Positions 22,035 to 25,000 of a stretch of DNA of 64,000 nucleotides are shown piece by piece (position 1 is the stretch's first letter; each line of letters begins with the position of its first letter). Position numbers and translations under genes: made by a program. The DNA lies in assembly GCA_030849465.1 (NCBI GenBank), contig JARVLF010000019.1:496001-560000 (forward strand), given 5' to 3'. Below the pieces are notes generated by a model. The model was given only the letters and a program-made list of their open reading frames with translations. It had not been told where the DNA came from and ran no database searches. This DNA comes from Moesziomyces globuligerus (lineage: Eukaryota; Basidiomycota; Ustilaginomycetes; Ustilaginales; Ustilaginaceae).

Positions 22035-25000
22035 CTAGTAGAGACGCAGCGCAACGTTGACACTCTGCAGCTCCTGCATGAGCAGCTTGGCCGCGTAGGG
22101 GATGTGGATCTGCGAGATGGCCGTGCGGTTGCGGCACGATCGGCACTCGTACGTGCCCTTCTTGAGGTTCGCCAGCGCCGTCAACCCGCACAGGTCGCAC
22201 ACGTGGATGCGGTACGGGTCCGATACGTCAAACATGCGCTCCTTGAGGAAGCCCGCGATGCCGTGCGCGATCATGCAGTCGCGCTCCATCTCTCCGAATC
22301 GCAGACCACCGCCGCGCGATCGTCCCTCGACGGGCTGGCGCGTCAGGATCTGCACCGGCCCGCGCGCGCGCGAGTGGATCTTGTCATCCACCATGTGCTT
22401 CAGACGCTGGTAATACGTCGGCCCCAGGTACACCTGCGCCTGCATCTTCCGTCCCGTGTGACCATGGTACATCACTTCGAGTCCACGCGACTGGTATCCG
22501 AGTCCGCGCAGAATCGAAGATACGGCCTCCACCGTGAGCTCCGTGAACGGCGTCGCGTCGCCCTCCTGTCCTGAAAGCGCCGCCACCTTGGACAGCAGAC
22601 ACTCGACCAAGTGTCCGATCGTCATTCGCGACGGAATCGCGTGCGGGTTGATGATGATGTCCGGCGTGATACCCTCCGAAGAAAACGGCATGTCCTCCTG
22701 GCGGTACGAAATGCCCACCGTGCCCTTCTGTCCGTGACGCGAGGCGAACTTGTCGCCCGTCTGCGGAACGCGCACATTGCGCACCCGCACCTTGACGAAC
22801 TTGTTGCCGTTCGAGTTGGTGGTCACCAGCACCTGGTCGATAATGCCATTTTCCGTCGACTTGAGCGAGATGCTGGCGTCTTTCTTCGTGTGCAGCTTGG
22901 AGCGCATCCCAAGCTCCTCCGAGTCCAGCGGCAACGGCGCCGTCTTTCCAATGATGACGTCGTCGCCCGAAACACGCGTGCCCGGCGCGACCAGTCCGTC
23001 GGCATCGATCTTGTCGTATGTGCCGTGCTTCATGCGGATCGTCGTGTCGCGGTGCGGCTTCTCGAATTCCTCGAGTTGCATAACACCAACCTTTTTTTCC
23101 TCCGCCTGGTACCCCCGGTAGTACAGCGATCGGAAAAGGCCTCGATCTATCGACGACTGGTTCATAATCACCGAGTCTTCCTGGTTATATCCTGAATAAC
23201 ACATTATGGCCACGATCGCGTTTTGTCCTGCGGGGAGTTCCCTGAACCTCATGTGTTCCATCGCCCTCGTCGTGCCCAGCGGCTTCTGCGGGTACATCAA
23301 GAGGTGGGCCATCGAGTCGGCACGACACATGACGTTCGAGATGGGAACGCCAACCGCTTGCTTCGCCATCGCCGCTGTAAGGTTGATAGAAGGGATGTTG
23401 TCAGTCTCTTGCACGTTTCATAGCTGGAATGAATGAAGCACTCACACTCTGTAGGAGAAATTGGGTGACAGGAGAGAAGGTCATGGTATACAAAGAAATC
23501 AAGGTGGTCAGTAAGCTGTCTGAGCCTGTTTAAGAGCTTTGTCAAGGAGACTCACCATACACGTTTCGAGGACTTTGGTTGTGATCGGGAAACGGAATAA
23601 TCGAGCAGCATATTCCAAGCACCATCGCCGGATGGATCTCGCAGTGCGTCCAAGTATCAGGTGCGATCGTGAGCGCGGACTTGAGTCGCGCAGTGGGGTC
23701 GGCGGAGGTGAGGTTGAGGTTCCCGTTTCGCAGCTTGTACTCGCGGGACTGCTCGAGGTCGGTGGTGGACATGCAGATGAGGGCGGACTCCTCTTCCTCA
23801 GCATCGAGATACTCGATGACACCTTCCTGGACGAGATGGGTCCAGCGGAACTCTTCGCCGGTGTCGGGGACGGGCTGACCGATCATGTCGACGTGGTGCT
23901 TCTTGATGAGGAGGGTCATGTCGTAAGGGTTGACGATGAAGACGGGACGAAGGACACGGGAGGCGTCGGTGTAGATGCGGAGTTCGCGCTCGCGGATGTC
24001 GCGGACGACCGAGACCTCGTGGGAGATGTCGTCCTTGCGACGGAGGTCGCGGAGGGTGTCGACGAGCTGGCCCGGATCGTCGTGGGTGCCCATCCAGACG
24101 CCGTTGACAAAGATCTTGGTGGCCTTGGCGTGGGCGACCTGCATGTCGACGAGCGAGTCGAGACCGAACTCTTCGAGGAACTCGACGATGGGTGCCGAGG
24201 GCGTGCCGACGGTGACGGTGGCCATGAGACTGAGGTTCTTGACCAGACCGCACGCCTGTCCTTCGGGCGTCTCGGCCGGGCAGACCATGCCCCAGTGGGT
24301 GTTGTGGAGCTGACGAGGCTTGGCGATCTTGCCGTCGCGGCCGATGGGCGTGTTGGTGCGGCGCAGATGGGAGAGGGTGGAGGCGAAGGCGAAGCGGTTG
24401 AGCACCTGAGAGACACCGGCCTTGGCCTGCATGGCCTTCTTCTGGTCGCCCCAGTTGCCGGTGGCGAGCGAGTAGCGAAGACCGTTGGTGATGGTGCTGG
24501 ACTTGACGGCGGCCTGGATGTGGAACTCGCGGTGCTCCTCGACACACTTTTGGAGGTGGCGGTAGACGTCTCGCGTGACCTTGCGGAAGAGCATGCGGAA
24601 GAGGTTGGCCATGAGGGGCCCGCCGAGATCGATACGCTTCTTGCCAAAGTGGTCGCGGTCGTCGATCTCGCGGCGGTCGAGGGCGGCGAGGAGGAGACGG
24701 TGGATCATGTAGCCGAAGAAGTAGGCCTTTTTGGTGTTGGAGCCCTCTGCGGTGGAGACGTGGGGGAGCATCTCCTTCTGGAGGATCTCCTGGGCGTAGA
24801 CGGTACGCTTTGCGCGCGAGAGACCGGTGGTGGTGCCTCTTCGGCCGATGAAGTCGAGGGCGACGTCGCGATCCTGGATGACAAAGGCCTCTTCGATGCA
24901 CGGCTTGAGCATCTCGAGCATGGGCGTGTCGTTAAAGTCGTAGCAGATGTGCTGGAGGACCTCGCGATCGGGGACGATGCCGAGGGCGCGGAAGACGATG

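Follow-up and report, generated by a model that had tools for sequence, protein, structure and literature searches.

Can an exon of three nucleotides (nt) be a regular part of a fungal core gene? The question is raised by RPB2 in Moesziomyces globuligerus. We analyzed a 64,000-nt stretch of contig JARVLF010000019.1 (assembly GCA_030849465.1, positions 496,001 to 560,000 of the forward strand), which we call the window. Two long RPB2 exons on its minus strand are separated by a 181-nt gap that starts with GTGAGT and ends with CTTACAG. Inside this gap, at 23454-23440, the sequence reads CTACAG AGT GTGAGT. A sequence-only reading had proposed that AGT is an exon in its own right. Our examination of splice signals, alternative splice paths and related proteins indicates that AGT at 23448-23446 is very probably a genuine, normally included exon of RPB2. 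The gene is laid out as follows, in window coordinates.

25938-23556, minus strand: RPB2 exon 1, 2383 nt, ending ...AAC GTG TAT G
23555-23449, minus strand: intron 1, 107 nt, GTGAGT...CCTACAG
23448-23446, minus strand: proposed micro-exon AGT, 3 nt, which completes GAG and begins TCG (Glu-Ser)
23445-23375, minus strand: intron 2, 71 nt, GTGAGT...CTTACAG
23374-22035, minus strand: RPB2 exon 2, 1340 nt including the stop, starting CG GCG ATG GCG AAG

Re-reading the minus strand across 23375-23555 returned every letter and coordinate that had been reported around AGT. Exon 2 opens at 23374 with CGGCGATG. Joining and translating the exons also reproduced the two products that the sequence-only reading had described. 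With AGT joined, RPB2 has 1241 amino acids (aa) and reads NVYESAMAKQ (Y-E-S-A-M); with AGT skipped, it has 1240 aa and reads NVYAAMAKQ (Y-A-A-M). Both products are in frame. Reading through past exon 1 without splicing leads to a stop five codons beyond TAT.

The identity of the gene is clear. The protein matches annotated RPB2 along 100% of the query with 95% identity, which establishes full-length homology. Database proteins P0001-P0009, seven of which come from smut fungi, share 93-95% identity with the joined protein; P0004 and P0007 were placed with the smut sequences by identity alone. A PF00562 match to the exon 2 region lies at C19:518314-519393 (window 22314-23393), and the PDB chains nearest to a 149-aa piece of the protein are RPB2. 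The other two PF00562 genes found in the assembly are closest to RPC2 and to RPA2. No near-identical protein for this species' RPB2 was among the matches listed in three similarity searches, and no split or truncated database copy of it was among the matches listed in two. Y794 of the window protein aligns to yeast Y769, the gating tyrosine that is described as blocking backtracked RNA (PMC8528822).

Both introns are canonical GT-AG introns (GTGAGT...CTACAG and GTGAGT...TTACAG), and their donors carry the same hexamer, GTGAGT. The 65 nt ahead of the micro-exon acceptor CTACAG are free of AG. The sequence-only reading had described two canonical flanking introns, each with a CTGAC branch candidate, and we confirmed this. 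Intron 2 contains a single CTGAC 26 nt from its acceptor. The single CTGAC of intron 1 lies 59 nt from its acceptor and an ATGAC lies at 32 nt, so the branch site of this intron is less certain. The junction is not a zero-length recursive splice site, in which AG is joined directly to GT, as the three bases of AGT intervene. AGT may nonetheless act stepwise, in a manner similar to a recursive splice site.

Fungal introns are short and are recognised as introns. We looked for a local standard of intron length with a rough unsupervised intron finder. Its initial version produced no splice consensus. A stricter version gave 24 candidates in 264 kb, of which only the six with GTRAGT donors were judged believable. 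These six are 71-126 nt long, closer to the 107 and 71 nt of two introns than to the 181 nt of one, which weakly favors two introns.

We enumerated the GT-AG paths that bridge the gap with one or two introns, using 12 donors and 10 acceptors, introns of at least 40 nt and a middle exon of at most 60 nt; GC-AG and AT-AC paths lay outside this enumeration. A scorable protein resulted from 171 paths, 30 of them with a single intron. The AGT path scored 116 of the 125 that a perfect match would receive, and the runner-up scored 73. No other splice path came near, including those that use donors inside AACGTGTATG or acceptors within the first 20 nt of exon 2. With AGT included, the frame is kept, the protein is full length and it fits the family better.

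To gauge the chance of such a site arising, the gap was dinucleotide-shuffled 20,000 times with its end hexamers preserved. A bare AG-NNN-GT with flanks of at least 45 nt was common (3552/20,000). The strong form, YAG-NNN-GTRAG, appeared in 54/20,000 shuffles and a triplet yielding Y-E-S in 285/20,000; the strong form and an E-S triplet occurred together in 6/20,000. Sixty AG-free bases at the position of the acceptor were found in 0.9% of shuffles. After the final G of exon 1, only AAT and AGT among the 64 triplets encode E-S. It follows from the genetic code that E-S is the closest to Q-S that can be reached from this G.

We compared the junction with the RPB2 family. Three similarity searches, each giving its best 120 matches at most, listed 348 proteins; the motif was readable in 244 of them and not in the other 104. 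YQSAMGKQ is present in 238 of the 244, and the rest comprise four intein-bearing proteins, one SQSAMGKQ and one RNSAMGKQ. Y-A-A-M, which the sequence-only reading had named as the form whose presence in relatives would speak against the exon, was found in none of these 244 proteins. The window reads Y-E-S-A-M-A where relatives read Y-Q-S-A-M-G. Among 120 full-length relatives listed, Q is present in 119 (with a gap in the other) and G in 120. The claim that AGT restores a conserved motif therefore stands for its length and for Y, S, A and M; it fails at Q, which is E, and at the next invariant residue, G, which is A. Four residues of the window protein (C778, E795, A799 and M837) differ from those kept in 109/109 sequences outside P0001-P0011. 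The patch is unusual in this species regardless of splicing, and the argument from conservation is strong for spacing and weaker for identity.

Two smut proteins deviate at the same junction. P0006 (Melanopsichium pennsylvanicum RPB2) reads RNHSQSAMG, with H-S replacing V-Y. P0008 (Sporisorium scitamineum RPB2) reads RNSAMG; it has lost V-Y-Q and resumes precisely at S. Both look like gene-model errors around a single phase-0 intron between Q and S. Mushroom RPB2 presumably carries an intron at YQ/SAM.

The locus is best explained with AGT as a separate exon, as had been proposed: its path ranks highest, its intron signals are good and the skipped form is absent from the readable relatives listed. 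From these features we infer that AGT is included in the mRNA and that its use is apparently obligatory or nearly so. Several points weigh against this conclusion. The path, shuffle and AG-free-tract tests were all chosen after the site was seen. The path score is ungapped, so a path that is one residue short is not fairly ranked by it. Q and G are both still altered when AGT is joined, which weakens the conservation argument. The CTGAC of intron 1 is distant from its acceptor. Finally, the RPB2 gap is absent from the list of the stricter intron finder, which is therefore a poor yardstick.

The 181-nt gap could instead be a single intron, with RPB2 truly one residue short and with AGT and its signals present by chance. 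The frame is kept without AGT, the signals at the ends of the gap are canonical, and the patch is already odd in this species at the four residues named above. This explanation nevertheless requires the loss of a residue beside the gating tyrosine, in a form that no readable relative listed displays. Such a loss directly after Y794 is unlikely to be tolerated because this tyrosine blocks backtracked RNA. The inner splice signals and the E-S triplet would also have to coincide by chance, which happened as seldom as in the shuffles (a post hoc comparison). We consider a single intron quite improbable. An explanation that overlaps with our own, which is about the main form, is that AGT is alternatively included and both Y-E-S-A-M and Y-A-A-M are made, two proteins that would differ beside the gating tyrosine. 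Each form is in frame, alternative use is known for some 3-nt exons (PMC7392893, PMC4674806), and the two donors share GTGAGT, so competition between them is plausible. We regard substantial production of both forms as unlikely, given that the skipped form is unseen among the same relatives and would probably make a poor polymerase.

Two further explanations concern the origin of the letters themselves. The odd letters could be artefacts of a local sequence or assembly error, the true gene having one ordinary intron at YQ/S. P0006 and P0008, judged from their proteins, would fit a wrong choice of splice sites around one phase-0 Q/S intron, and the window deviates at either edge of that junction. 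Such an artefact would nevertheless need several independent errors that jointly preserve the frame and create a strong inner acceptor/donor pair, and the flanking exons are open and as close to relatives as stated above. We therefore rate an error as very improbable. The origin of two introns three bases apart does call for an explanation, and intron 2 might be a recent insertion of an introner-like or repeated element that left AGT behind. An introner-like element should have multiple similar copies, yet intron 1 and intron 2, used as queries in a search that skips very common words, each matched only themselves in the 18.5-Mb assembly. This origin is hardly credible.

If AGT is an obligatory exon, the pre-mRNA would contain two short spliceosomal introns parted by three bases. 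The splicing machinery cannot occupy both sides of three bases simultaneously, and the introns are therefore most likely removed sequentially. Either order would leave a usable site. Removing intron 1 first would leave a normal donor (TATGAGT/GTGAGT), and removing intron 2 first would leave a normal acceptor (CTACAG/AGTCGG). The resulting mRNA would read TAT GAG TCG GCG ATG and encode Y-E-S-A-M, preserving the spacing beside the gating tyrosine. Skipping keeps the frame, so a low-level Y-A-A-M form could exist that nonsense-mediated decay would not clear.

Two features of the RPB2 coding sequence lie near the junction. Just downstream, residues 801-840 (window 23360-23241, minus strand) form a divergence hot spot between smut proteins P0001-P0009 and 109 others. 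In residues 801-820, 8/15 strongly conserved columns are changed in the consensus of P0001-P0009 and 7/15 in the window; in residues 821-840, the corresponding values are 3/19 and 5/19. Every other listed 20-residue block has at most three changes in the consensus or the window, and residues 1-40 have no qualifying column. Upstream, the third-position bases of RPB2 (25938-22035, minus strand) are mostly C until about codon 750 (about 23691) and mixed but rich in G beyond it. This switch in codon use lies about 45 codons ahead of the first RPB2 intron.

The micro-exon junction coincides with an insertion point in a paralogous gene. The Pol III paralog RPC2, on contig C13, contains a 730-aa insert at TYQ/C...FTGN/CAMGKQ (C13:944355-946544, minus strand; L026:1856-4045). 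The insert sits at the position homologous to the RPB2 micro-exon, and the frame of 1904 aa that contains it is uninterrupted. The gene was identified by its first 722 residues, which match a Pol III RPC2 chain with 1030 bits and RPB2-named chains with at most 380 bits. RPA2, the Pol I paralog, reads VYQTQMMKQ and has no insert. The RPC2 insert has the ends of an intein: it starts with C, ends with N and is followed by C at the conserved extein site. Four Tilletia RPB2 proteins (P0019, P0020, P0021 and P0023) have in-frame inserts of 399-407 aa with C...GN ends, exactly at YQ/SAMGKQ. In a BLASTP comparison with a four-sequence database, the two ends of the RPC2 insert matched the P0023 insert (39% over 166 columns, E 5e-29; 39% over 105 columns, E 9e-15). 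The Tilletia inteins thus interrupt the same point as the RPB2 micro-exon junction. They differ in being removed from protein and not from RNA, and each is a single insert of several hundred residues where the window RPB2 has two introns.

The Tilletia and RPC2 inserts are identified as inteins by their ends and by what PMC10849329 reports of the group. That paper describes RPB2 and RPB2-like inteins in Salmacisia (Tilletiales), located between two common reverse PCR primers, and the legend of its tree includes Ustilaginales. Inteins at several polymerase sites have long been known (PMC1635734). The RPC2 insert carries LAGLIDADG-like motifs at 160 (FVGFVMGDG, found by pattern) and at 564 (ILEGHSAADG, found by eye), with no profile match. 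The corresponding motifs look degraded relative to the RPC2 intein in the P0019, P0021 and P0023 inserts, the three Tilletia inserts in which the pattern located them. Pfam and NCBIfam intein models did not match the RPC2 insert, and Pfam intein families had no match in this genome. P0021 and P0023 likewise have no Pfam intein match, so the Pfam models seem insensitive to this group. A PDB search with the N-terminal part of the RPC2 intein gave four weak matches, the best of which is an intein (E 0.21). When the assembly was searched with the first 224 residues of this intein, no second copy came up.

Could inteins have shaped the RPB2 junction? The letters of AGT straddle the intein point, AG belonging to the Q/E codon and T to the S codon. 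This placement raises the possibility that the junction was shaped by endonuclease cutting or by escape from it. The putative RPC2 endonuclease or its ancestor would have cut RPB2, and error-prone repair would have created or moved introns there. In a variant of this idea, RPB2 would keep its split site and its substitutions of Q by E and of G by A because they hide it from the endonuclease. Compared with each other, the spliced RPB2 site and the RPC2 site without its insert share 19/26 bases (-6 to +20), 21/35 bases (-13 to +22) and 33/56 bases over a wider span. Polymerase introns, unlike inteins, are reported to show no preference for conserved sites (PMC1635734), which counts against a general link between the two. 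Introns at this boundary may also be old. The positional match between the micro-exon and the intein point is real. That the micro-exon and its introns mark a conflict with a homing intein is, in our estimate, distinctly unlikely. If this were true, spliceosomal introns would have been made or kept by intein pressure. Because the RPB2 micro-exon and the RPC2 intein share a position, a connection of intron gain with homing endonucleases can be tested within one clade.

If confirmed, RPB2 would be a fungal core gene with a 3-nt exon that is apparently obligatory and sits immediately beside the RNA polymerase II gating tyrosine. The locus would also be a clean natural test of how the spliceosome handles two introns that are three bases apart. 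RPB2 is a standard fungal marker, which makes the junction relevant to annotation and phylogeny. Database proteins P0006 and P0008 look damaged there, and inteins at this junction are reported to fall between two reverse primers in frequent use (PMC10849329).

Known ultra-short exons place the RPB2 case in context. The sequence-only reading had called 3-nt exons extraordinarily rare. They are rare, but they are already established (PMC7392893, PMC4674806): exons of 3 nt and of 1 nt are known, and RPB2 is unusual as an apparently obligatory case in a core gene. Among the papers listed in open-access searches on fungal microexons and smut RPB2 introns, no title or abstract opening names this 3-nt exon of RPB2. 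Work on fungal microexons has been called relatively limited (PMC11121469). The same source describes a functional micro-exon in a filamentous fungus, in Trichoderma virens Xlr2, which differs from RPB2 in that it is regulated by glucose and lies in a transcription factor gene of an ascomycete. The 3-bp micro-exon of Drosophila homothorax resembles that of RPB2 in length and in keeping the frame (PMC7392893). It differs in being alternatively spliced from a 48-bp exon and in lying between two domains and not at an active site, and its conservation has been traced across insects. Further 3-bp exons are reported in troponin T and NCAM (PMC7392893). The Arabidopsis APC11 gene has a 1-nt exon that, like the proposed RPB2 exon, is ultra-short, constitutive and needed for the protein of a conserved single-copy gene (PMC4674806). 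Annotation had missed that exon, and sequential removal of both introns was proposed for it, as we propose for RPB2. The two cases differ in exon length and in that APC11 is a plant gene with a 422-nt intronic stretch and with proof from cDNA and reporter constructs. Skipping the APC11 exon breaks the frame, whereas skipping AGT in RPB2 keeps it.
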